A stretch of 64,000 bases of DNA from Acrocarpospora phusangensis (GTDB taxonomy: Bacteria; Actinomycetota; Actinomycetes; Streptosporangiales; Streptosporangiaceae): the NCBI RefSeq assembly GCF_016862995.1, contig NZ_BOOA01000009.1, positions 62,001 through 126,000 of the forward strand, written 5' to 3'. Positions 7,686 through 20,395 of the stretch are shown piece after piece (within the stretch, counting starts at the first letter, position 1; every line of letters starts with the position of its first letter). The translations under genes and the position numbers were made by a program. The notes under the pieces are model-generated. The model saw only the letters and a program-made list of their open reading frames with translations. It was not told the DNA's origin and did no database searches.

Positions 7686-8480
7686 TTACGGCTTTCTGGC
7701 GACCGCGCCTTCGACGATGAGGCGGCTGCTGATGGAGTCCATCGCGGGACGCCACCGCTGCACCGGGACCAGGCCGGGCTCCTCGATCTCCAGACCCTCG
7801 AAGAAGTCCAGGATCTCCGCATGGTCGCGGAAGGTGGACTGGGCGGGGCTGTTGGCCGTGGACGCCTTGAGCTGCGCGAGCACCTCCGGCTCGCTCTCCG
7901 AGCTGCTGTGCGAGAGCACGAAGTAGCTGCCCGGGGCGACCCTGTCCCGCAGCCCGGAGACGATCCGGTACGCGCCCTCCTCGTCGGAGACGAAGTGCAG
8001 CACGGCCACCAGGAGAACGCCGACCGGGCGGTCGAAGTCGATGAGGTCCTTCACGTCGGGGTGGCCGATGATGTCGTCGGGGCGGCGGATGTCCGCCTCC
8101 AGGGTGATCACACCGTCGTCGGTGGCGAGCAGGGCGTCGTTGTGGACTTTGACCAGGGGGTCGTTGTCCACGTACACGACCTTGGCGTCGGGGTGGGTCT
8201 CGCGGGCGACCTCGTGCACGCTCGGGGAGGTGGGGATGCCGGTGCCGAGGTCGATGAACTGGGACACGCCGCGTTCGGAGAGCAGTCTGATGGCGCGGGC
8301 GAGGAATGCGCGGTTCGCCCGTACGACGGAGCGGGTGTCGGGGGCGACGGAGAGCAGGCGTTCCGCGACCATGCGGTCCACGGCGTAGTTGTCCTTGCCG
8401 CCGAGGAGGTAGTCGTAGACGCGGGCCGAGCTCGGCTTCGACGAGTCGATTCCCCGGGGAACTCGCGCAAGCTCGTCCAT
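7686..8480 (-). CDS. SAM-dependent methyltransferase, PF04672 type
   Basis: 264 residues. RGIDSSKPSSARVYDYLLGG and KDNYAVDR near the N-terminus, then QFIDLGTGIPT (the SAM glycine loop), are hallmarks of the actinomycete S-adenosyl methyltransferase family once called DUF574. Substrates are unknown, although genomes of filamentous actinomycetes carry many copies. ATG 8480 is preferred over TTG 8504 because GAGGAGAAAGTC precedes it at good spacing and the MDELARVPRGID start matches family practice. It stands alone, divergent from the gas-vesicle-like genes across a 227-bp, comparatively A+T-rich spacer that probably contains both promoters. Confidence 0.88.
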   Translation of the reverse strand: MDELARVPRGIDSSKPSSARVYDYLLGGKDNYAVDRMVAERLLSVAPDTRSVVRANRAFLARAIRLLSERGVSQFIDLGTGIPTSPSVHEVARETHPDAKVVYVDNDPLVKVHNDALLATDDGVITLEADIRRPDDIIGHPDVKDLIDFDRPVGVLLVAVLHFVSDEEGAYRIVSGLRDRVAPGSYFVLSHSSSESEPEVLAQLKASTANSPAQSTFRDHAEILDFFEGLEIEEPGLVPVQRWRPAMDSISSRLIVEGAVARKP

Positions 8481-8707
8481 GACTTTCTCCTCAATTCCAC
8501 CCAAAGAAGTAAAGGGTTATACGGCCGATCATAGGGCTAAGGCGGATACCGAGGATCTATATCCCCTTTATGGTCGTTTATGTTCTTATGTCTGCTTAGT
8601 GGGCATGGCGGTGAGTAAAGAAGGATCAGCGCAATGCCGATCTCTTCTAGGTGGCGTGTGCGCCCGATCTGTGCCGGGAGCCGGAGCCGCTGCTGGGAGG
8701 AGGAATC

Positions 8708-9280
8708 ATGACAAGTCGCGTCAAGGTGGCGCTGGCGGTGGCCGTGGGGTACTACCTCGGACGGAATCACAAGCTGAAGACGGCCGTGAGCCTGGCGATG
8801 GCAGGAGCGGCCGGCCAGTTGCGGGCCCACAAGGGCAAACTGCTGGAGCAGGGCCTCAAGGTCCTCGACTCGCCGGAACTCAACGAGCTTACCGGCCGGC
8901 TCCGCCACGATCTGCGGGAGGCGGGGCGTACCGCGGCGGTGGCGGCCACCAGCAAGCAGATCAACGCACTCAGCGACAAGATCCACAGCCGGGCCGAGAT
9001 GCTGCGGCACCCGGAGGAACAGCTCAAGGCAGCAGCCGCGAAGGGTACGGAGACCGCGGAAACCGTGACCAAAGCGGCCGGTGGCACCGCGAAGCAGGCC
9101 GCCGAGACCGTGACCGAGCAGGCCGGCGGTCCGGCGAGGACCGTGACCAAGGTCGTCGGTGGACGTCGGGAGAAGGGCGACGGCCGGAAGGCGCCCGAGG
9201 AAGAAGCGGAATCGAAGACGCGGGAGGACGCCGGGACGGGCGACCGGCGGACGGAGTCCGAGCTTCGGGTATCGGGGTGA
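8708..9280 (+). CDS. helical protein resembling gas-vesicle-locus accessory gene
   Basis: 190 residues, Ala/Lys/Glu rich, mostly helical. The start MTSRVKVALAVAVGYYLGRN is followed by HKLKTAVSLAMAGAAGQLRAHKGKLLEQGLK and a long Ala-Thr-Glu-Lys tail of heptad-like repeats (residues about 105-150). GGGAGGAGGA (8695-8704) sets ATG 8708. From memory, similar genes sit in Streptomyces gas-vesicle clusters beside an SRPBCC gene (as here), where gvpY and gvpZ have no known function. No gvpA, gvpF/L or gvpK gene is present in this window, so the assignment rests on resemblance and neighbours only. The stop abuts the next start (alternative GTGA overlap at 9277). Confidence 0.5.
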   Translation: MTSRVKVALAVAVGYYLGRNHKLKTAVSLAMAGAAGQLRAHKGKLLEQGLKVLDSPELNELTGRLRHDLREAGRTAAVAATSKQINALSDKIHSRAEMLRHPEEQLKAAAAKGTETAETVTKAAGGTAKQAAETVTEQAGGPARTVTKVVGGRREKGDGRKAPEEEAESKTREDAGTGDRRTESELRVSG

Positions 9281-9285
9281 CCGGG

Positions 9286-10398
9286 ATGACACAGGACGTG
9301 AAGAGCGAGCCGGTCAAGGAGACCACGCAGGCGCTGCCGCTCAACAGGCTCGGGCACGAGGTGACCGGCCTGATGGAGGCACTCGGGCAGCGGGCGCTGG
9401 GCTCGGTGACCGGCAAGGTGACCTCGCTGACCGGACGGCTGACCGAGTACGCCGAGAGCGGGGGCAAGGGGCAGGCCGATGGGGGCGCCGGTCCCTCTGC
9501 GCCCGCTCTCGGTCGTGTCCGGCGGCTCGGGCAGATGTTCAAGGGAGCAGGAACGGCGGCCAAGGGCCTGGGACAACTGGTCAAAGGCGGCGCGCAGGCC
9601 CTGGGGCTGACCGGCGGGGGAGGCGGCAAGTCCGGAGGCGACAAGACCCGGGCGATCAACATCGTCGAGACCCTCGACGTCGGAGCCCCGGTCGACGTCG
9701 TCTACAACCAGTGGACCCGGTTCGAGGACTTCCCGACCTTCATGAAGAAGGTGGAGCACGTCAAGCAGGAATCCGACGAACAGGTCACCTGGAAGGCCCA
9801 GATCTTCTGGTCCCACCGGATCTGGAAGTCGGACATCATCGAACAGGAGCCGGACAAGCGGATCATCTGGCGGTCGCAGGGCAAGAAGGGCTACGTCGAC
9901 GGAGCGGTGACCTTCGAACCGCTCGGCTCGAACCTCACCCGCGTCGCGCTCGTGCTGGAGTACCACCCGCAGGGTTTGTTCGAGCGTACGGGGAACCTGT
10001 GGAGGGCGCAGGGACGCCGAGCCCGCCTGGAGTTCAAGCACTTCAGACGTCATGTGATGACGCAGGCGATGCTGCATCCGGAGGAGATCGAAGGCTGGCG
10101 CGGGGTGATCCACGAGGGTCAGGTCGTGGAGGAGAAGAAGGACGAGACCCGCGACAGGCCGGAAGCACAGGACGAGTCGGCCGGCGAGGGACGCGAACAG
10201 GGCGAGGGACGCGAACAGGGCGAGGGACGCGAACAGGGCGAGGGACGCGAACAGCGAGCCGAGCGAGGCCGCGACGAGCGTGAGGAAGGCCGCGACGAGC
10301 GCGAGGAAGGCCGCGACGAGCGCGAGGAAGGGCTCCAGGCGCAAGAACGCTCCGAGGACCGCGAGCCGGCCAGATCCGGAGGTTCCTCGAAGTCCTGA
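9286..10398 (+). CDS. SRPBCC (START-like) protein with repetitive charged tail
   Basis: 370 residues. An N-terminal helical part (LPLNRLGHEVTGLMEALGQR...) and a Gly-rich linker lead to an SRPBCC hydrophobic-pocket domain at about residues 124-265 (VDVVYNQWTRFEDFPTFMKK, SHRIWKSDIIEQEPDKRIIW). The last 70 residues are a low-complexity tail of four GEGREQ and three GRDEREE repeats. The ligand is unknown; SRPBCC proteins bind lipids or other hydrophobic molecules. Start ATG 9286 or GTG 9277 (overlapping the previous stop) cannot be separated. The pairing with the preceding helical gene recalls the gvpY-gvpZ pair of streptomycetes, from memory. Confidence 0.65.
   Translation: MTQDVKSEPVKETTQALPLNRLGHEVTGLMEALGQRALGSVTGKVTSLTGRLTEYAESGGKGQADGGAGPSAPALGRVRRLGQMFKGAGTAAKGLGQLVKGGAQALGLTGGGGGKSGGDKTRAINIVETLDVGAPVDVVYNQWTRFEDFPTFMKKVEHVKQESDEQVTWKAQIFWSHRIWKSDIIEQEPDKRIIWRSQGKKGYVDGAVTFEPLGSNLTRVALVLEYHPQGLFERTGNLWRAQGRRARLEFKHFRRHVMTQAMLHPEEIEGWRGVIHEGQVVEEKKDETRDRPEAQDESAGEGREQGEGREQGEGREQGEGREQRAERGRDEREEGRDEREEGRDEREEGLQAQERSEDREPARSGGSSKS
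10183..10329 (+). repeat. two in-frame tandem arrays, 18-bp x4 and 21-bp x3
   Basis: Four perfect or near-perfect copies of GGCGAGGGACGCGAACAG occupy 10183-10254. After a 12-bp break, three copies of a 21-bp unit coding GRDEREE occupy 10267-10329. Both periods are multiples of three, so copy changes keep the frame and would alter only the length of the acidic/basic tail of the SRPBCC protein. Confidence 0.9.
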
Positions 10399-10423
10399 AA
10401 TGTCATGAAGTAAGGAGTGCGAC

Positions 10424-10816
10424 ATGCCCGAGGAGTCGCGGAAGCCAAGCCCAAACCCGGCGAACTCGTCGAGCGTCGCCCACGACCAACCTCGCGAACC
10501 TCGCGAACCTCACGAACCTAGCGCGCTGGGCGAATGGGGCGATCCCGACGTTCTGCCTGACCGGGCCGAGCCCGATGTCCTGCTCGACATCCCGCAGGTC
10601 AAGGTCGACGAGATCAACCTCACCGTCGAGGACCTCCGCGCCCGAGTCTCGCTGGACGCCGAAGTCCTCGACCTCCTGCGCCTGCACGTCGGCGCGGACG
10701 TAGCCCTCGGCAAGGTAAACCAGCACGTGACCGCTGCGAAGGATTACAAACGAGTCCAGATCGATTACGTCGTCGCGGCCAAACTTCTGATCCCGCGGCG
10801 GGCAGACGAGTCCTGA
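10424..10816 (+). CDS. conserved hypothetical protein, possibly gas-vesicle-locus associated
   Basis: 130 residues. The first 45 are disordered and carry three PREPREPHEP-type triplet repeats (CGCGAACCT repeated in the DNA near 10490-10520). A compact conserved core follows: LLDIPQVKVDEINLTVEDLR, then ARVSLDAEVLDLLRLHVGAD and VALGKV. This core resembles, from memory, small proteins of actinobacterial gas-vesicle and stress loci; I cannot name the family. AAGGAGTG sets ATG 10424. It lies 25 bp after the SRPBCC gene, likely the third gene of the same operon. It converges on the hydrolase gene with 10 bp between stops. Confidence 0.5.
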   Translation: MPEESRKPSPNPANSSSVAHDQPREPREPHEPSALGEWGDPDVLPDRAEPDVLLDIPQVKVDEINLTVEDLRARVSLDAEVLDLLRLHVGADVALGKVNQHVTAAKDYKRVQIDYVVAAKLLIPRRADES

Positions 10817-12735: not shown

Positions 12736-12960
12736 GCGGAAGCGCGAGCCGCGGAAGCACGAACCGTGACAGCGTGAACCGTGACAGCGTGAACCGTGAC
12801 AGCGTGGGCCGCGAAAGCACGAGCCGCGAAAGCGCGAGCCGTGACAGCGTGGGCCGCGGAAGCGCGAGCCGTGACAGCGTGAACCGTGACAGCGTGAACC
12901 GTGACAGCGTGGGCCGCGGAAGCACGAGCCGTGACAGCGCGAGCCGCGGAAGCGCGAGCG
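12736..12960. repeat. minisatellite, fifteen 15-bp units
   Basis: Fifteen contiguous 15-bp units fill 225 bp without a break. Two main variants alternate irregularly: GTGACAGCGTGAACC (or ...GGGCC) and GCGGAAGCGCGAGCC (or GCGAAAGCACGAGCC). The array ends 5 bp before the stop codon of the exported surface protein gene (12966). Because 15 is a multiple of three it is open in several frames on both strands, but I find no ribosome site or protein-like start and treat it as non-coding. Confidence 0.9.
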
Positions 12961-12965
12961 ATGGT

Positions 12966-13697
12966 CTAGGAGACCGCCGTGCTCCGGCGGCGCCTGCGGG
13001 CGTTGACGCCGGCCGCCGTCGCGCCCGCCAGGCCCAGGCCGAGGTAGAGGCCGGCGCCCGAGGCCAGCGGCACCGGCGGCGGCGGGTCCAGGGTGGCGGG
13101 GCCGCACATGGCGTGACCGATGATCACGTCGCCGACACCGGCGAGCAGGCGGACGTGGATGGCGTTGACGGTCAACTGGTCGCCCGACGCGATCTGCTCG
13201 TTCAGGGTGACCGACAGGATGGGCAGCAGCGGCGGAACCTGGATGACGGTGTTCACCGCCGGGTTGGCCGCAACGGCGATCCCTCCGACATTGGCGCCGG
13301 TCAGGCTGACCGAGCCGGTGGTGGGCGAGCCCGCGGTCGCGTTGCAGGTGGCGGTGAGGGCGTCGGCGGTGATGCCGATGCCGGCGAGCGTCGCGTTCAG
13401 GTCCTCCAGCGACGCGGTGGCGCTCTCGGTTCCGATCGCGGTGTCCTGCTGGACCGAAGCGTTGAGCGTGTTCGCGTTGAACTGGTTGGCGCCGCCACCG
13501 GTGCCGATGGTCGCCACCGAATCACTGGGATCGCTCAGATTCGCATAGGGGGTGGGGCCGAATGACAGGAGCGGCAGGGTGGCGGTCACGCCGTACGCTT
13601 CCACGTCTGTGCTCGCCGAGGCGCGGTCGGCGAGCATGAGCACGCACATTCCGCTCGCCACCGTGGCCATGCACGCTCTTTTCAAGAACCTTTTCAT
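12966..13697 (-). CDS. secreted choice-of-anchor-P-like surface protein
   Basis: 243 residues. A signal peptide (MKRFLKRACMATVASGMCVL to ADRASAS) is followed by a Ser/Thr/Ala/Asn-rich beta domain. Alternating segments such as ITADALTATCNATAG, GSVSLTGANVGG and LTVNAIHVRLLAGVGDVIIG lead to a CGPATLDPPPPVPLASG linker. The C-terminus is a hydrophobic helix ending in ARRRRRSTAVS, the tripartite layout of a sorted and anchored protein. It matches, from memory, the choice-of-anchor P family, and an exosortase-like protease lies 4 kb away. That the protease processes this substrate is inference. Divergent from the LuxR-type regulator, with two dyads in the shared 257-bp spacer. Confidence 0.72.
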   Translation of the reverse strand: MKRFLKRACMATVASGMCVLMLADRASASTDVEAYGVTATLPLLSFGPTPYANLSDPSDSVATIGTGGGANQFNANTLNASVQQDTAIGTESATASLEDLNATLAGIGITADALTATCNATAGSPTTGSVSLTGANVGGIAVAANPAVNTVIQVPPLLPILSVTLNEQIASGDQLTVNAIHVRLLAGVGDVIIGHAMCGPATLDPPPPVPLASGAGLYLGLGLAGATAAGVNARRRRRSTAVS

Positions 13698-13782
13698 TGG
13701 ATCCCCTTGGGCTGTTTTTCCGCAACCGGATGTTCACCCAGGTTATGGCTGAAGGGGAATGGCAACGTCGCATATTCCATCG

Positions 13783-13836
13783 TTGCTCACTCTTCCGAGT
13801 GAGCAATGCTCGATTAATCACTCCTCGGGGTGAGTG
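13783..13836. promoter_or_regulatory. two CACTC/GAGTG dyads, candidate operator pair
   Basis: A perfect 10-bp inverted repeat, TTGCTCACTC (13783-13792) and GAGTGAGCAA (13797-13806), has a 4-base TTCC loop. A second dyad, CACTC (13819-13823) and GAGTG (13832-13836), shares its core. Their centres are 33 bp apart, about three helical turns. They lie between the surface-protein gene start (13697) and the LuxR-type regulator start (13955), so a dimeric DNA-binding protein could control both. The first dyad could alternatively act as an RNA hairpin. Confidence 0.5.
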
Positions 13837-13954
13837 TTAATTCTGAGCGCTGAGGGGCGTACCGCTAGATTGGGCACCAGCGAAGCCCCCTCCTGGCTCA
13901 TTCGTTTTAGATGCGACCAAACTGGTCATATTTCACTGTTCGCGCGAGGACAAT

Positions 13955-14632
13955 GTGCAGGAATATCGTGTCGTCGTAGTAGACGAGTCCAAGCTCACCC
14001 ACATAGCACTAAATATCGTTTTCGCGAAGTCGGGGCGATTGCGGATCATCGCCGCCGTGCCCACTGTGCACGAGGCCAGGAGCGTCATTCTCACGCACAA
14101 GCCCGAGCTGGTGCTGTGCGAGACGGACATCGGCGGCGAGAGCGGCCTCGAACTGTGCGGCTGGATCCGGCTGGCCAGCCCGTCGACCCTGCCGGTGCTG
14201 CTCAGCAGCACCAATGACGACGCCGTGGCCGTCTCGGCGATGACCTGGGGCGCCGCCGGCTACCTGCTGAAGATCTCCCCACCCGAGGACCTGATCTTCT
14301 ATCTGTACGGCGTGCTCGCCGGCCAGCAGATCATCGACGACCGCGTCACCACCCGCTCCTGGCGGTCCGGCGAGGAGAGCTCACTGGCCCGGTTCGGCCT
14401 GAGCGCCAGGGAACGGGAGGTCCTGGACGAGGTCCTCCTCGGCTACGACAACCGTTCCATCGCCCTGCGCCTGCGCATCTCCATCGACACCGTGAAAAGC
14501 CACGTCAAGGCGATTCTCAGGAAGACCGGCGCCCGCGACCGGGTGCACGTCGTGGCGATGGCGCTCGGCCGCGGCCGGGCCGACACGCTCGTGCCGGTCG
14601 GGCCGCGCCAGACGGGAGGGCACGTTGCGTAA
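13955..14632 (+). CDS. LuxR-type response regulator with degenerate receiver
   Basis: 225 residues: a receiver-like domain (1-125) and a NarL/LuxR HTH. The HTH reads LSAREREVLDEVLLGYDNRS, then IALRLRISIDTVKSHVKAIL. In the receiver the acidic pair is D10-E11 and the expected phospho-acceptor Asp is replaced by Glu56 (in ELVLCETDIGG); the conserved Lys survives in GYLLKI. It may therefore act independently of phosphorylation, or be locked active; this is inference. The GTG start is at 13955 with GAGGA just upstream. It overlaps the wecB-like gene by 8 bp, tying regulator and glycan enzyme in one transcript. Confidence 0.85.
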   Translation: MQEYRVVVVDESKLTHIALNIVFAKSGRLRIIAAVPTVHEARSVILTHKPELVLCETDIGGESGLELCGWIRLASPSTLPVLLSSTNDDAVAVSAMTWGAAGYLLKISPPEDLIFYLYGVLAGQQIIDDRVTTRSWRSGEESSLARFGLSAREREVLDEVLLGYDNRSIALRLRISIDTVKSHVKAILRKTGARDRVHVVAMALGRGRADTLVPVGPRQTGGHVA

Positions 14633-15737
14633 GCGTGTGGCGGCCGTGGTCGGAACCCGGCCGGAGGCGATCAAACTCGGCGTGGTCGTCGAGGCCCTGC
14701 ACGCCGAGCCGTGGGCCGAGGTGGCGGTCGTCGGCACCGGCCAGCACGGCGCGGTCGTCGACGACGTGCTCGCCCTGTTCGGCGCGGCCGTGGACCGGCG
14801 GGTCGCCCTTGGCGCCCCTGACGGCCTGACCGGCCTGGCCTCCGGCCTGCTCGGCGGGCTCGGCGCCGAGTTCGCGGCGCACCGGCCCGACCTGGTCCTG
14901 GTGCAGGGCGACACGACGTCGGCCCTGGCCGGGGCGCTCGCCGCGTACCTGGCGGGGGTTCCGGTCGCGCATGTGGAGGCGGGACTGCGCAGTTATGACG
15001 CGCTGCCGTTCCCGGAGGAGGCGAACCGGCGGATGATCGCCCCTCTCGCCGCCCTGCACCTGGCCCCCACCCCGCGCGCCGCCGAGAACCTGCTGGCCGA
15101 ACGCATACCGGCGGAGCAGGTCGTGGTGACGGGCAACACGGTCATCGACGCGCTGTTCCGCATGGGCGGCGGCACGCCCCGGGAACGCCCGCTGGTCGTG
15201 GTGACGGCGCACCGGCGGGAATCGTGGGGGGAGCCACTGCGCCGGGTCGCCCGGGTGGTCACCCGGCTTGCCCGTACATATCCGGACATAGATCTGCTGG
15301 TCGCCACGCACATGAACCCCGCCGTACGCGAGATCTTCGAGCAGGAGACGTACGGCCTGCCGACCATCGAGTGCGCGCCCCCGATGCCGTACCAGCAGTT
15401 CGTGCGGACGCTCACCACGGCCTCGCTGGTGATCACCGACTCGGGCGGGGTCCAGGAGGAGGCGGCCTCGCTCCGGCTGCCGCTGCTGATCATGCGGGAG
15501 ACCACCGAGCGCGGCGAGGCGCTGCACAGCGCGTCCACCCATCTGGTCGGCACCGACGAGGAACTCATCTTCAAGAGCGCCGCCGCCGTGCTCGACGTGG
15601 CCAGGCCCGGCCGCACGGCCCGTACGCCCAGACCGTGTGTGTTCGGAGACGGCAAGGCGGCTGACCGGACTGTCCGGGCTTGTGGGTGGTTGCTGGGGAT
15701 GCGGGAACGTCCAGCGGAATTTCATCCCATGGAGTGA
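14625..15737 (+). CDS. wecB: UDP-N-acetylglucosamine 2-epimerase, non-hydrolysing
   Basis: 370 residues, standard WecB/MnaA length. Motifs in order: VVGTRPEAIKL, VQGDTTSALAGA, VAHVEAGLRSYDALPFPEEANRR (catalytic acidic residues), VVTAHRRESWGEPL (conserved His) and VITDSGGVQEEAASL (UDP site). The enzyme interconverts UDP-GlcNAc and UDP-ManNAc, a precursor of teichoic-acid linkage units and surface polysaccharides. The TTG start at 14625 has GACGGGAGGG directly upstream and overlaps the end of the response regulator gene. With the nearby glycosyltransferase and exosortase it suggests a surface glycan coupled to protein sorting. Confidence 0.92.
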   Translation: MRKRVAAVVGTRPEAIKLGVVVEALHAEPWAEVAVVGTGQHGAVVDDVLALFGAAVDRRVALGAPDGLTGLASGLLGGLGAEFAAHRPDLVLVQGDTTSALAGALAAYLAGVPVAHVEAGLRSYDALPFPEEANRRMIAPLAALHLAPTPRAAENLLAERIPAEQVVVTGNTVIDALFRMGGGTPRERPLVVVTAHRRESWGEPLRRVARVVTRLARTYPDIDLLVATHMNPAVREIFEQETYGLPTIECAPPMPYQQFVRTLTTASLVITDSGGVQEEAASLRLPLLIMRETTERGEALHSASTHLVGTDEELIFKSAAAVLDVARPGRTARTPRPCVFGDGKAADRTVRACGWLLGMRERPAEFHPME

Positions 15738-15816
15738 GAGGGGAGTGTTTCCAAACGTCATTCTCGCTTGCTGTGTGACCCTCGGGTGGTCACCTCGCAA
15801 GCGGTTGGAGGCCCGG

Positions 15817-15981
15817 GTGTATTACGGAGGAAGCGGTGGCGGCTGGGGCACATTCGGCTGGGGAACTCCCCGGCTGCCCGGTACCGGCCTTCCCGTCATG
15901 TTGTTGGTCGCATTGGCCGTGGGCCTGGTCGTCGGCGGCATGATGATTGTCCGCGCGGTCCGGATGCGAAAAGCCGGATAA
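15817..15981 (+). CDS. 54-aa protein with LPGTG-TM-basic tail
   Basis: A tiny gene: GTG 15817 with GGAGG (15807-15811) five bases upstream. The product is Gly/Trp-rich (YYGGSGGGWGTFGWGTPR), followed by LPGTG, a hydrophobic helix (LPVMLLVALAVGLVVGGMMI) and a basic tail (VRAVRMRKAG). This is the exact order of a sortase sorting signal, but there is no signal peptide in this 54-residue form. A longer form from GTG 15745 adds 24 residues without an obvious signal peptide and with a cramped ribosome site. A bidirectional terminator follows at once. It may be a mini-substrate or assembly factor of the exosortase/glycan locus; no homologue is recognised. Confidence 0.5.
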   Translation: MYYGGSGGGWGTFGWGTPRLPGTGLPVMLLVALAVGLVVGGMMIVRAVRMRKAG

Positions 15982-15982
15982 C

Positions 15983-16018
15983 CGAAAAGGCCCAGACATA
16001 TTTGTCTGGGCCTTTTCG
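15983..16018. terminator. bidirectional rho-independent terminator
   Basis: A perfect 16-bp stem, CGAAAAGGCCCAGACA and its complement, has a TATT loop. It starts 1 bp after the mini-protein stop and ends 10 bp before the glycosyltransferase stop. The AAAA and TTTT runs inside the stem give a U-tract in both directions, so it insulates two convergent operons. Confidence 0.9.
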
Positions 16019-16028
16019 TATTGGGCTT

Positions 16029-17408
16029 TCAGGAATCCCGGGCGACGGGCGCGCCGCGCAGGTGCGTCTCGCTGTTGCGTCTGGTTTTGGCCCAGCCGCT
16101 GCGTCCGCGGAGCAGGCGGAAGGCCGCCCGCCATGAGGTGATGTAGAAGTTGTAGATGTAGAGGGCGTAGGCGAAGCCGTACCCGACGCCGCGCAGGAAG
16201 CCGATCTCGGGCGCGCAACGCCACCAGTAGAGGGGCCCCCACACCAGGAACGGCAGGGTGCCGAACGCCAGGTACGTGGTGAACAGGATCCACCCGCCCG
16301 CCGCCATGAACGCCATCACCCCGGCCGGATCCACGACCATCCGCCAGATCAGGAAGCTGAGCGGGATCGGGTAGATGAGGGTGCCGAACAGCTGCATCCA
16401 CGGCTGCGCCAGGTAGTAGAGCACCTCCAGGGCGCCCAGACCGGTGAAGTTCCTGGACCACCACACCTCGGGCAGGTACTTGGCGCACTGCATCGTGCCC
16501 TGCCCCCACCGGGTGCGCTGCGTGATCAGCCGCTTGAACGAGGCCAGCCCCTCCTGCTCCACCCAGGTGTCCGAGGTGTACTCGTTGCGCTCCCCCGCCA
16601 GCAGCAGCTGGATGCCCAGCTCGAAGTCCTCCAGCAGCGACCCGCCCCACGGGCGTTTCCCGTCGGCGGCCAGCTTGTCCAGCGCGCTCAGACGGGTGAG
16701 CTGGCCGTTGCCGCCCATGGCCACCGTGCCCGTCTTGCGGCGGCTGAGCTGGATCGCCGAGATCGCGCCGCGGAACTCCAGGTCCTGCATGCGGACCAGG
16801 GTGCGCCCGAAGAAGTTGCGGAACCGGCCGGCGCCGGGGAACGGCGTGCGTTCCCCGCGGTTGCTCATCCACACGTCGATCTGGACCGCGCCGATCGACG
16901 GATCGCCGAACAGCCGCTCGCCGGCGCACACCGCCAGCATGTTCGGCGCGGGCCTGCCGTCGGCGTCCAGCACGCAGACGACCTGGTCAGTCCGGCTCCG
17001 ACCCGGACCCAGCCAGGAGTCCAGCGCCGTGTACGCGGCGTTGAGCGCCTCGCCCTTCCCGGTCCGCGCCGCCGGCAGGTAGCGCCGGACCAGGTGGATC
17101 ATCGAGTCGCGGGCCGCCAGCCCGGCCACGATCTCCGCCGTACGGTCCTCGGAGGCGTCGTCCACCACCCAGAGCCGGGCCAGCGGGAAGACCTCCCGCA
17201 GGTAGTGCAGCGTCTCCCCGATGACCGCCTCCTCATCCCGGCAGGGAATGAAGATGTGCCAGCGGAAATGCCGGGGATCACCCGCCTTGTCGGGCTTCTT
17301 TCGCACGTACGGCCGCAGGATCGTCAGCACGTACGTGATGAACATGACGCTGAGGAACAGCGCGAACGCCTGGGTCAGGCCCAGGAGGTAGCTGAGGCTG
17401 CCGATCAT
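16029..17408 (-). CDS. membrane glycosyltransferase family 2
   Basis: 459 residues. An N-terminal membrane helix (SLSYLLGLTQAFALFLSVMF) precedes a GT-A domain: IFIPCRDEEAVIGETL, LWVVDDASEDRTAEI, VCVLDADGRP (DxD) and an SLLEDFELGI plus QRTRWGQGTMQ pair equivalent to the ED and QxxRW motifs of processive synthases. Three or four C-terminal helices follow (from about residue 320). The layout resembles cellulose/hyaluronan-type or poly-GlcNAc synthases, so a secreted polysaccharide is a reasonable inference. The sugar is unknown; UDP-ManNAc or UDP-GlcNAc from the wecB-like enzyme is plausible. ATG 17408 overlaps the exosortase stop (ATGA), showing tight coupling. Confidence 0.87.
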   Translation of the reverse strand: MIGSLSYLLGLTQAFALFLSVMFITYVLTILRPYVRKKPDKAGDPRHFRWHIFIPCRDEEAVIGETLHYLREVFPLARLWVVDDASEDRTAEIVAGLAARDSMIHLVRRYLPAARTGKGEALNAAYTALDSWLGPGRSRTDQVVCVLDADGRPAPNMLAVCAGERLFGDPSIGAVQIDVWMSNRGERTPFPGAGRFRNFFGRTLVRMQDLEFRGAISAIQLSRRKTGTVAMGGNGQLTRLSALDKLAADGKRPWGGSLLEDFELGIQLLLAGERNEYTSDTWVEQEGLASFKRLITQRTRWGQGTMQCAKYLPEVWWSRNFTGLGALEVLYYLAQPWMQLFGTLIYPIPLSFLIWRMVVDPAGVMAFMAAGGWILFTTYLAFGTLPFLVWGPLYWWRCAPEIGFLRGVGYGFAYALYIYNFYITSWRAAFRLLRGRSGWAKTRRNSETHLRGAPVARDS

Positions 17409-17932
17409 GCGGCCGTCCTTCCGCGCCCGCTGCGGATCGCCAGCAGCGCGTAACTGATCAGGCTCAGCCCGATGCCGAAGATGCTGATGACCGAACCGAC
17501 GATGGTGTGCCCCCAGTAGTAGCCGGACGAGAAGCCCATGCCCTTGATCAGGAGCACCACGGCGACGATGCGGACCTGGTTGGTGGCCAGCAGCAGCAGC
17601 GAGGCCACCGCCAGCCCGAGCAGCGGCCAGAACGAGCCCTGGCGGCGCAGCCAGATGAGCAGGCCGGTGACGATCACCAGCGGCACCATCAGGAACGCCG
17701 AGGTGCACTCCGGCGTGATCTGCAGGCCGGTCGGATGCCCGGTCTCCCGGTTGAACGACACGATCGCCAGGAACGGGTTGGCCCCGGTCTCGGTGGCCGC
17801 GCTGACCGAGACGACCGTACTGGCGATCACCGCCTCCCAGCCGCGCAGGACCGACTCCTTGGTCAGGACCAGCACCAGCAGCACAGCCAAGGCCGCCAGC
17901 ACCAGAACCCGTTGGATGGACTGAAAGGTCAT
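17405..17932 (-). CDS. exosortase/archaeosortase-family membrane protease
   Basis: 175 residues with about five membrane helices. The catalytic triad pattern of exosortases is visible: Cys in ITPECTSAFLMVPL, Arg in LLATNQVRIVAVV and His in GYYWGHTIVGSVISI. These enzymes cleave C-terminal sorting signals of surface proteins and pass them to a membrane or glycan acceptor. It is shorter than the 250-300 residues of proteobacterial EpsH-type enzymes but in the range of actinobacterial ones. ATG 17932 is used; ATG 17977 would add 15 residues. It overlaps the glycosyltransferase gene by 4 bp. The likely substrate is the surface protein at 12966-13697 (inference). No helper symbol assigned. Confidence 0.78.
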   Translation of the reverse strand: MTFQSIQRVLVLAALAVLLVLVLTKESVLRGWEAVIASTVVSVSAATETGANPFLAIVSFNRETGHPTGLQITPECTSAFLMVPLVIVTGLLIWLRRQGSFWPLLGLAVASLLLLATNQVRIVAVVLLIKGMGFSSGYYWGHTIVGSVISIFGIGLSLISYALLAIRSGRGRTAA

Positions 17933-18099
17933 GCGCGCCCCCCGGATACTCGACTGCACGGACCGTAGTACGCCCATGACCCGCGCCCCCGCCCACGACC
18001 GGGTGCGCTCACTCCAGAGGAGGAGACCGGGGCGCGTCCCCCGCGACCGCCGTCGCCCAGCCGTTAACGTGCGGCGACGTCCATTCGAAGGGGGCAACG

Positions 18100-18864
18100 A
18101 TGGCGCTTCGTGTCGTGCTCGCGTACCTGATGGCCGGACTCACCGCGTCCTGCGGTCTGCCTCAGGCGTCCGCCGTGGGCCGGCCGAGTTCGACGATGGC
18201 GGTGGGCTCCTGCCATCGCATGTCGCAGCCGGAGGAGCTTTACCACGTCAGCGACGTGGCCCCGCCGGTGCCGTGCACCCACCCCCATCAGACGGAGACC
18301 TACCTGCTGACCAAGGTCTCCGGTTCGCTGGCCGCCGAGCCGGTCCGGCCCAGTCCCGACCGGCTGCGCGCGGCCTGCGACTACCGCCCGGTGCGTCCGT
18401 ATCTGGGCGCGCGGGCGCGGGACGCCCAGTGGGGCATCGAGATCTGGGCGAAGTTCCCGACCCGCACCGAATGGGCGGCGGGAAACCGCATCCTGCGCTG
18501 CGATCTGTTCGTCCCGGCCCTCAACCCCGATGACGCCCCCGAGGTCACCACGCCTCTGCGGGGCATCATGGGCACCCGCCAATCCGTGGCCGTACGGCGC
18601 TGCCGCCTCGAAACCCAGGACGTCGTCTGTGCCCTTCCCCACGACCAGGAGTGGGTGGAACCGCCGGCCTACCTGTACACCGAGGACAACACCAAGCGGC
18701 AGTGGCGACGCCAGTGCCGGGTGAACGCCCGCGCCTACACCGGGGGGCCGCTGGCCGGCCTGAACGTGACTCCGGTACCGATCAACGATCACCAGGCCGA
18801 GTGCTGGCTGCGCCACGAGGACGGCGCGGTGACCACGACCACCCTGCGCGGGGGCCTGCGGTGA
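18100..18864 (+). CDS. septum-formation-like secreted protein
   Basis: 254 residues. A hydrophobic N-terminus (ALRVVLAYLMAGLTASCGLP) is either a signal peptide or an imperfect lipobox (LTASC). The exported part is Cys-rich (C in VGSCHRM, VPCTHPHQTET, RAACDYRP, ILRCDLFVP, VRRCRLE, VVCALP, RQCRV, AECWLRH), implying disulfides. VPCTHPHQTETYLLTKV is the core I associate with the septum-formation (PF13845) family. AAGGGGG sets ATG 18100. Divergent from the exosortase gene across 167 bp and followed by the membrane-protein gene 50 bp on. A role at the cell surface is likely; the exact function is unknown. Confidence 0.68.
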   Translation: MALRVVLAYLMAGLTASCGLPQASAVGRPSSTMAVGSCHRMSQPEELYHVSDVAPPVPCTHPHQTETYLLTKVSGSLAAEPVRPSPDRLRAACDYRPVRPYLGARARDAQWGIEIWAKFPTRTEWAAGNRILRCDLFVPALNPDDAPEVTTPLRGIMGTRQSVAVRRCRLETQDVVCALPHDQEWVEPPAYLYTEDNTKRQWRRQCRVNARAYTGGPLAGLNVTPVPINDHQAECWLRHEDGAVTTTTLRGGLR

Positions 18865-18913: not shown

Positions 18914-20395
18914 GTGAAGACCGCTGTGGTGACCGGCCTGCTCTGGGCCGGGGTCATGCTGGCGCGGCTGTTCACCGGCGGGCCGGTGGGGGTCGCGGAC
19001 CAGGGCGGCGGCCAGAAGCTGCTCTGCGGGTTCGGGCTCGCCAATTCCCGGCCGTGGGGTGTGGACGGCGCGGACTACGTCTTCACGACCTGGGAGTCGC
19101 ATCCCTGGTTCGGGGAGACCTGCGAGCCCTATCGTTCGACCCAGCTGGCCATGATCTGGCTGGAGAAGTCGATCAACAGGCTGCTGTGGCTGCCCGGGGA
19201 CGTCGACACCCGAGGGCTGGGTGTCATCTGCGCGATCCTCGTCGGGGTGATCGTCGCCCTGCTGGCCGGGCTGCTGCCGGGCCGGTGGTGGATCCGGGCG
19301 GCAGTGGCGAGCACGATCGGGCTGGTGTACGCGGACGCCGCCTTCGCCGGGTTCTTCGTCTCGCCGCACACCGAACCGGTCGCCCTGCTGGGGGCCGGGT
19401 TCCTGCTGGCCGCCCTGCTCTGGCTGGGGCGCGGCGTGACCGTGCTGCGCCTGTCGCTGGTGACGGCCGTCGCCCTGGTGACGATCGGAGCCCAGGTGCA
19501 GACGGTCGCGCTGGTCGTGCCGGTGTGCCTGGCGCTGCTGTGGCGGCCGGTCCGCGGCCAGCGGTGGCGGCGCGGGGCGTGGTGGACGGCGCTGCGGCGA
19601 ACCCCCGGGATCGTGCTGAGCCTCGCGGTGATCGCCATGGCGTCGTTCCACCTGGCCTCGCAACCGGAGCGCCAGATGGCCGCGGCCCGGCAGGCCCTCG
19701 TCTTCGGCTCGATCCTGTACGACAACCCCGGCGCCGCCAAGGACCTCCAGGGACTCGGATTCGACCCCCAGGCCGCACTCGCGATCAGCGAACTCTCCGA
19801 CGGAGACGGCACCGTCATCAGCCTCCCGCCCGCGCTGAACGCGGTCTTCAACGCGACGGTGACGAACACCGCCATCGCGCGCTTCTACCTTTCCCATCCC
19901 GCCCATGTCATCCGGGCCCTCGGCTGGGGCCTGGAAGGCATCGGCCGCCTGTCGGCCGACCATCTCGGCTCCTATCCGCCCGAGGCCGGGCACCACCCCG
20001 GCGCGCGGGAACACCGCATAGCCGTGTACAGCTGGCTGTGGGGGACATTCCGCGCCGCTCCCGCCCTCCTGGTGATCCTCTGGATCGTCACGTTCGCCGC
20101 GGGCCGCTCCGTGACGCGGCGGCGGGGGCTGAGGCCGCGCAGGAAGGCGGTCGGCACCGTCGCCATGCTCGTTCCCGTCATGATCGTCGCTCAGTTCGCG
20201 GCGGTCCTGGTCAGCGCCGGCCGCGTGGAGAGCACTCACCATCTCACCGTGGTCAGCTTCCTCACCGCGACCTGCATCCCCCTCCTGTGCCTGTCCCTGT
20301 GGGTCCGCCTCCAGGGCGTGCGCCCCCGGCCGCACTGGCAGAAGGCTCCCGGCATGCCCGAGAACCGGCGCCCGCTGGCCTCCGCCGGAGTCTGA
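18914..20395 (+). CDS. polytopic membrane protein of unknown function
   Basis: 493 residues with an N-terminal hydrophobic segment, an extracytoplasmic loop (about 25-90, with paired Cys in LLCGFGLAN and ETCEPYRS), then a block of helices (about 100-210). A second large loop (about 235-365) and three C-terminal helices follow. I see no transporter or glycosyltransferase motif, though the loop-helix layout is reminiscent of GT-C-type integral membrane proteins. GTG 18914 follows GGGAGGAACG. It probably forms an operon with the septum-formation-like gene; the context suggests cell-envelope assembly. Confidence 0.6.
   Translation: MKTAVVTGLLWAGVMLARLFTGGPVGVADQGGGQKLLCGFGLANSRPWGVDGADYVFTTWESHPWFGETCEPYRSTQLAMIWLEKSINRLLWLPGDVDTRGLGVICAILVGVIVALLAGLLPGRWWIRAAVASTIGLVYADAAFAGFFVSPHTEPVALLGAGFLLAALLWLGRGVTVLRLSLVTAVALVTIGAQVQTVALVVPVCLALLWRPVRGQRWRRGAWWTALRRTPGIVLSLAVIAMASFHLASQPERQMAAARQALVFGSILYDNPGAAKDLQGLGFDPQAALAISELSDGDGTVISLPPALNAVFNATVTNTAIARFYLSHPAHVIRALGWGLEGIGRLSADHLGSYPPEAGHHPGAREHRIAVYSWLWGTFRAAPALLVILWIVTFAAGRSVTRRRGLRPRRKAVGTVAMLVPVMIVAQFAAVLVSAGRVESTHHLTVVSFLTATCIPLLCLSLWVRLQGVRPRPHWQKAPGMPENRRPLASAGV

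Follow-up and report, generated by a model that had tools for sequence, protein, structure and literature searches.

A tyrosine-bearing L[PA]xTG mini-protein beside GT2 glycan synthases, inside and outside actinomycete exosortase loci

Background

To our knowledge, the acceptors used by Gram-positive exosortases and the products of the glycan synthases associated with them are an open question. Among the closest described systems is that of XrtG in Lactiplantibacillus plantarum, which in the available part of its source is called complete with an exosortase, two glycosyltransferases (GTs) and one sorted protein (PMC12854382). The accessible text of the 2006 paper on PEP-CTERM proteins states that these were not found in actinomycetes (PMC1569441), and class E sortases are described, in the available portions of two further papers, as using an LAXTG motif (PMC5148588, PMC13251363). 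Here we analyse a stretch of 64,000 nucleotides from Acrocarpospora phusangensis (contig NZ_BOOA01000009.1, positions 62,001 to 126,000; hereafter the window), in which an XrtP-type exosortase locus is accompanied by a gene for a 54-residue protein with an LPGTG motif, hereafter the mini-protein. An earlier note, made from the sequence alone, had read this region as the sorting of a surface protein coupled to a secreted glycan, with a possible new small component. All six features that it named are present at their places, as judged by open reading frame (ORF) positions and profile matches, and the small component is real, in the form of a conserved mini-protein. Its interpretation is partly supported: the exosortase, substrate and glycan synthase do constitute a conserved unit, but the mini-protein is not bound to exosortase loci. 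We propose instead that the exosortase loci are one branch of a wider actinobacterial set that combines a Tyr-L[PA]x[TS]G mini-protein with a PgaC/NodC-type synthase.

The mini-protein and its glycan synthase partners

The mini-protein gene (15817-15981, plus strand) starts with GTG and is preceded by a ribosome-binding-site-like GGAGG (15807-15811, plus strand). Its product has an N-terminal tyrosine in a glycine-rich N-terminal tail of 19 residues, followed by LPGTG, one transmembrane (TM) segment and a basic tail; with a hydropathy peak of 2.79 and four basic residues after LPGTG, it has the layout of a C-terminal sorting signal. Read from the sequence, the first 19 residues are glycine-rich and non-hydrophobic and do not form a Sec signal peptide; hence the mini-protein may act like a sorting signal and not as a classical pre-protein. 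We compared 17 related loci, having dropped L049 (Pyrinomonas, 26% identity) from an original 18; the 16 genome handles concerned correspond to 14 distinct genomes, G036/G063 and G008/G066 being duplicates. All 17 have a counterpart, a small ORF whose product combines L[PA]xTG with a single TM segment and a basic tail. Its motif reads LPFTG among the Streptosporangiaceae relatives; the loci from Arthrobacter, Curtobacterium and Streptomyces have LAxTG. Four gene orders are seen: the mini-protein convergent to the GT, exosortase-mini-GT, mini-GT-exosortase and mini-exosortase-GT. All 34 mini-proteins tabulated, whose start codons were picked by the analyst with M-Y favored where alternatives existed, have a tyrosine among residues 1 to 4; as both TAC (23) and TAT (11) encode this tyrosine, it is the residue and not the codon that is conserved.

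That so small an ORF might be spurious, or the decayed remnant of a sorting signal, is suggested by its very short length, the missing signal peptide, the GTG start and the lack of any Pfam match for the four mini-proteins scanned. We nevertheless regard this as very improbable, given that the mini-protein occurs across many genera, that purine-rich stretches lie upstream of most starts, that 27 aligned mini-proteins have invariant positions and that the pooled pN/pS (nonsynonymous to synonymous polymorphism) among seven Herbidospora copies is 0.156. At the level of sequence, the gene is under purifying selection.

To relate the mini-protein to exosortases, we surveyed 394 actinomycete genomes, 12 of which contain a match to the exosortase profile TIGR04178. 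Reading of the regions revealed a mini-protein at nine of these 12 exosortase loci. The best six matches of our first mini-protein profile (A1, whose listed matches may not take in all weaker mini-proteins), the ones scoring above 35 bits, all fall at exosortase loci, and two of the six come from training genomes. Seven of the nine mini-bearing exosortases were scored (L092 and G036 lay outside this scoring) and gave 68.7-116 bits to XrtP, XrtR or XrtS; for the three exosortases without a mini-protein, no single Xrt model gives more than 37.2 bits. In the incomplete genome G202 a mini-protein and an exosortase are even fused in frame within a single open frame (L093:6614-7315), though this might be a sequencing error, and at L046 the substrate ends in LAVSGAA while the mini-protein has LAATGAP. 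These observations would fit a role as accessory to the exosortase or as its second substrate, which we nonetheless deem improbable: 19 mini-proteins are found in genomes without a TIGR04178 match, each of them beside a GT2 synthase, and the three exosortase loci of a different type showed none. An exosortase-specific role is contradicted by G429 and G331, where the mini-protein lies beside a GT and there is no exosortase. The mini-protein is thus not exosortase-specific.

What accompanies it throughout is a synthase. Using a second profile (A2, 27 rows), we examined the matches above 38 bits and those listed matches with frames of at most 146 residues. All 23 matches above 38 bits in the 394 genomes are mini-proteins with an N-terminal tyrosine, at most 621 bases from a GT2 match; five weaker ones, picked because their frame is short or because they lie at an exosortase locus, are also mini-proteins near a GT2 (G042, G154, G393, G202 and G363; in G042 the GT had already been seen before the mini-protein was examined). 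Hence 28 of 28 mini-proteins, nine at exosortase loci and 19 in exosortase-less genomes, are near a GT2 of the PgaC/NodC type. Without an exosortase in the genome (19 cases) the gap to the GT match never exceeds 111 bases; at the nine exosortase loci, where the exosortase may intervene, it is 621 bases at most. In exosortase-less genomes the pairing holds for ten of ten tyrosine-bearing mini-proteins in the discovery set and for nine of nine outside the A2 training set. By contrast, a PgaC/NodC-type GT is near none of 20 short-frame matches that lack the N-terminal tyrosine (at least ten of them cut by contig ends, and L162 without the motif). Nor does one lie near any of 41 further distinct LPXTG-type places; these derive from 51 loci at 49 distinct places, of which four are mini-proteins and 45 are others without a GT, four of the latter overlapping the short-frame set. 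Comparison of 19/19 with 0/61 gives a Fisher p of 9e-19, with the tyrosine rule having been fixed after the first ten cases, and nine against none in three, obtained with the same A2 profile, gives p = 0.0045. The six mini-paired synthases scanned all match Pfam GT2 families and are PgaC/IcaA- or NodC-like, scoring below the cut-offs of the PgaC/IcaA and NodC models.

A third element of this association is the sortase. Sortases are present in all genomes searched (16 of 16 handles, representing 14 genomes, and 15 of 15 genomes), and the genome of the window (G000) contains nine matches to the sortase family PF04203. At L211, L213 and L215 the GT, mini-protein and sortase genes are consecutive, an arrangement that commonly marks a sortase with a dedicated substrate; the sortase is a PF04203 match in L211 and L213 and a homologue in L215, and L213 and L215 belong to the same genus. 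We consider it probable, judging by sequence and gene context, that the mini-protein, anchored by sortase, is a partner of glycan synthases and has also been put to use by exosortase systems.

Several observations weigh against this proposal. Only three of the 11 mini-proteins scanned, all exosortase-less, pass the LPXTG_anchor model TIGR01167 (15.9 bits); none of eight from exosortase loci does so, and that of the window is not listed at E<=1. The motif of the window mini-protein is LPGTG, as against LPFTG in its nearest relatives, and its gene is on the opposite strand from that of the GT. The mini-protein of L048 is 1.66 kb from the GT, as against at most 150 bases in 16 of the 17 related loci. 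Moreover, when the association is viewed from the synthase side, with 30 of 40 matches to L173-like (GT173-like) synthases examined, a mini-protein is present at 11 of the 30 loci, and at 14 of the 19 mini-less loci there is a different small TM protein without a sortase motif (four of these 14 loci built its profile, and some matches are the start of a longer frame). The notion that a GT implies a mini-protein is thus not true; a twelfth motif match, at L226, was judged spurious. From these two counts, small TM partners are seemingly common for such synthases, with the sortase-signal type as one form. This other small single-TM protein, characterized by LLP[DE]S and AxNTxxYxxL and without an N-terminal tyrosine, follows the GT2 at L228, L230, L232, L238 and others, and looks distantly related to the mini-protein in its TM segment.

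Small partners of the PgaC/IcaA synthases offer a model for a different reading, in which the mini-protein stays uncleaved as a single-pass synthase subunit and L[PA]xTG is merely a motif at the membrane boundary. The constant proximity to a GT2 synthase would suit such a subunit, as would the other small TM protein occupying the same place at mini-less loci, the resemblance, seen by eye, of the L241, L245 and L248 mini-proteins to that protein in the TM segment, and the failure of the exosortase-locus mini-proteins to exceed the LPXTG_anchor cut-off. However, the L, [PA], T/S and G positions are kept in diverged mini-proteins in which other positions of the N-terminal tail vary (most having been selected by the motif), and a sortase gene directly follows the mini-protein and GT in three loci. 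No PgaD/IcaD-type family is among the listed matches for 11 mini-proteins against NCBIfam or four against Pfam. On balance a synthase subunit appears to us a tentative alternative, and a rather doubtful one.

Two further observations were made from the synthase side. L241, L245 and L248 have tyrosine-bearing mini-proteins (LADTG, LPDTG and LAATG, respectively) that were found only by this route and are absent among the listed profile matches. At L240, L242 and L244 the TM segment of the LLP[DE]S protein stands at the start of a longer polytopic frame, which in L240 and L242 enters a stretch that by eye is GGDEF-like, hinting at a link to cyclic di-GMP.

The exosortase locus of the window

The exosortase of the window (17405-17932, minus strand) is the sole TIGR04178 match in this genome, with 31.6 bits (cut-off 23). 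The Exosortase P model NF012139 gives 116 bits, the best among the listed Xrt models yet below its cut-off of 200, and we therefore call the protein XrtP-like. Residues Cys76, Arg121 and His142 are invariant in 18 aligned exosortases, as are Arg30, Glu33 and Gly146. The profile match and the Cys/Arg/His triad place it in the exosortase/archaeosortase superfamily, with its activity predicted, in agreement with the membrane protease recognized in the earlier note. The overlap with a synthase-type GT is likewise confirmed: the ATG of the membrane GT2 glycan synthase gene (16029-17408, minus strand; NF053846 675.6 bits, cut-off 520; PF13641 72.5 bits) overlaps the exosortase stop codon as ATGA.

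The candidate substrate is a CoaP-like protein (12966-13697, minus strand) that scores above the cut-offs of both the choice_anch_P model NF040603 (100.2 bits, cut-off 27) and the CoaP_CTERM model NF053845 (49.3 bits, cut-off 35). It is the protein that had been picked out for its signal peptide and TM-RRRRR tail: a signal-peptide-like N-terminus is followed at the other end by PLASGAGLYLG, a hydrophobic TM tail and a terminal RRRRR, and this tail is conserved across 11 aligned sequences. AlphaFold2 (AF2) models the CoaP-like protein as an all-beta domain followed by a C-terminal helix (predicted local distance difference test, pLDDT, 79) and the exosortase as helical (pLDDT 89); neither model has a fold match in the PDB at E <= 0.001, and no sequence relative of the exosortases was found there. 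Among genomes carrying this GT, in which alone its distribution was scored, CoaP_CTERM occurs above cut-off as one copy each in eight of 16 genome handles (seven of 14 distinct genomes), always at the exosortase locus, as a coupling of substrate and protease would have it. These profile matches identify the locus as an XrtP-type exosortase system, with a GT and CoaP substrate above the curated NCBIfam cut-offs, and the data support exosortase, substrate and glycan synthase as a conserved unit. In Sinosporangium album (L041:9300-12000) CoaP has no match and WecB is reduced to a 34-residue remnant, with exosortase, GT, regulator and mini-protein retained, a loss pattern that offers a natural experiment on the requirements of each part of the locus. 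L088:10681-13098 encodes, after an exosortase and GT, three similar secreted proteins in tandem with a common hydrophobic tail and basic end, possibly multiple exosortase substrates.

Convergent with the exosortase and GT pair is a set of three genes (13955-15981, plus strand) that ends with the mini-protein gene, and the first of these is divergent from the CoaP-like gene. It encodes a NarL-type regulator (13955-14632, plus strand) with PF00072 (Response_reg) and PF00196 (GerE) above cut-off; the LuxR-type regulator of the earlier note thus stands as a regulator, its class being amended to response regulator because of the receiver domain. In all 11 Streptosporangiaceae loci (L032-L042), tblastn finds a homologue at the corresponding position. 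Overlapping it by eight bases is the gene for WecB, the non-hydrolysing UDP-GlcNAc 2-epimerase already suspected from the sequence (14625-15737, plus strand; TIGR00236 312.5 bits, cut-off 210), which has a match in 15 of the 17 loci (in pieces in L048) and none in L043. Divergent from the exosortase, and outside the region originally delimited, are genes that usually recur with the locus: a Septum_form-family protein with a lipoprotein-like N-terminus (18100-18864, plus strand; PF13845 51 bits, cut-off 25), with homologues in 13 of the 17 loci, and the polytopic hexose transferase WsfD (18914-20395, plus strand; NF051875 283.3 bits, cut-off 80), with homologues in 14. The full complement of genes is found again in Herbidospora, Rhizohabitans and Sinosporangium siamense, and a large part of it, in rearranged order, in Arthrobacter, Curtobacterium and Streptomyces, indicating that the set is more than a chance assembly.

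Between the convergent mini-protein and GT genes lies a perfect 16-bp inverted repeat (15983-16018, no strand assigned), probably a bidirectional terminator, which a terminator scan did not list; a sigma-70 promoter scan of 12900-18150 gave no match. A tandem array with a 15-bp unit repeated 14.6 times (12741-12959) separates the end of the CoaP gene from a DsrE-like ORF, and genes that by eye resemble a gas-vesicle cluster are found at 8479-10816.

A possible mechanism

Gene content, conservation, the motif, the GT pairing and the sortase genes are observed directly, and from them we infer a system that would make a surface glycan and decorate it with protein. UDP-ManNAc would be supplied by WecB, the GT2 synthase would polymerise and extrude the glycan, and WsfD might add side sugars. 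The XrtP-like enzyme would cleave the C-terminal tail of the secreted CoaP-like protein for its transfer to an acceptor. The mini-protein, in its predicted topology, would be inserted beside the synthase, and presumably contact it, with the short N-terminal tail outside and the C-terminus inside; a sortase would then cut at L[PA]xTG and couple the exposed peptide of about 20 residues to peptidoglycan. So tethered, the mini-protein may serve as a wall-anchored holder, primer or tether for the synthase and its glycan, the identity of which is likewise a prediction. With some 20 exposed residues, one invariant tyrosine, a sortase motif, an adjoining synthase and, in three loci, an adjacent sortase, it has the makings of a handle on the acceptors and glycans of such systems.

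The invariant tyrosine and the WsfD gene together suggest a tyrosine-linked glycan. Certain S-layer glycans are linked to tyrosine, and glycogenin uses a tyrosine. The mini-protein could accordingly be a glycan carrier, the synthase or a partner building or transferring the polymer onto the tyrosine and a sortase linking the resulting glycopeptide to peptidoglycan, a version that we judge unlikely. If true, such a carrier would allow polysaccharide to be anchored through a sortase, in parallel with the known wall-glycopolymer transferases, and the exosortase-processed CoaP-like protein would add one more component to that coat. Whether as carrier or as holder of a glycan, the mini-protein would exemplify a sortase-based fixing of secreted polysaccharide to the actinomycete wall.

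Comparison with known systems

The triad of exosortase, GT and CoaP is known to NCBIfam and is not new. Its XrtP system (NF012139, NF053846 and NF040603/NF053845) covers these proteins part by part and, like the window, has exosortase, GT2 and CoaP in one locus; it differs in that the window exosortase falls short of the NF012139 cut-off and in that its models omit the mini-protein, WecB, the Septum_form protein and WsfD. The new part would be the pairing of the Tyr-L[PA]xTG mini-protein with a GT2 and its use inside exosortase loci: in the open-access literature, leaving aside subscription papers and preprints, we found neither a report of an LPXTG mini-protein paired with a glycosyltransferase nor a paper naming XrtP, XrtR or XrtS, which is a weak negative in both cases. 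Genes of 50-60 residues readily escape both annotation and sortase-substrate screens.

The XrtG system resembles the present one as a Gram-positive exosortase with glycosyltransferases and a sorted protein, and is unlike it in having two GTs and a Firmicu-CTERM substrate, with no mini-protein named in the available part of the source (PMC12854382). The PEP-CTERM/EpsH system, going by the accessible text of its description, similarly ties a sorting enzyme with conserved Cys, Arg and His to exopolysaccharide genes, but belongs to outer-membrane bacteria and often has many substrates per genome (PMC1569441).

On the side of the mini-protein, the NCBIfam model NF058583 for a LAXTG small protein is similar in having 54 positions, and its best three among the matches listed are exosortase-locus mini-proteins (39.5, 39.1 and 36.7 bits); its cut-off, however, is 65, none of the 394 genomes has a match above it, and its name implies neither GT nor exosortase. 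Of the small-protein families, none of which the scanned mini-proteins pass, it comes nearest. As the family of the mini-protein it was rejected, since scores were below cut-off in every scan (13.9 bits for the window mini-protein, 40.8 for the best mini-protein scanned). The class E sortase substrates of Streptomyces and Actinoplanes share LAXTG/LPXTG, a TM segment and a basic tail, whereas seven Cwp proteins of the eight substrates listed for Actinoplanes have 219-762 residues, and the portions of these sources available name no mini-protein (PMC5148588, PMC13251363).

The XrtS loci of Arthrobacter (L044-L047), where the NCBIfam counterpart is XrtS with the PVV-CTERM choice-of-anchor G substrate (NF033767, NF051874; L045 was the one locus scanned with the family models), have a GT about 48% identical to that of the window. 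They also have WecB, the mini-protein and WsfD in four of four loci and the Septum_form protein in three of four. They differ from the window in combining these with another substrate family and tail, and with a mini-protein that carries LAxTG, not LPxTG.

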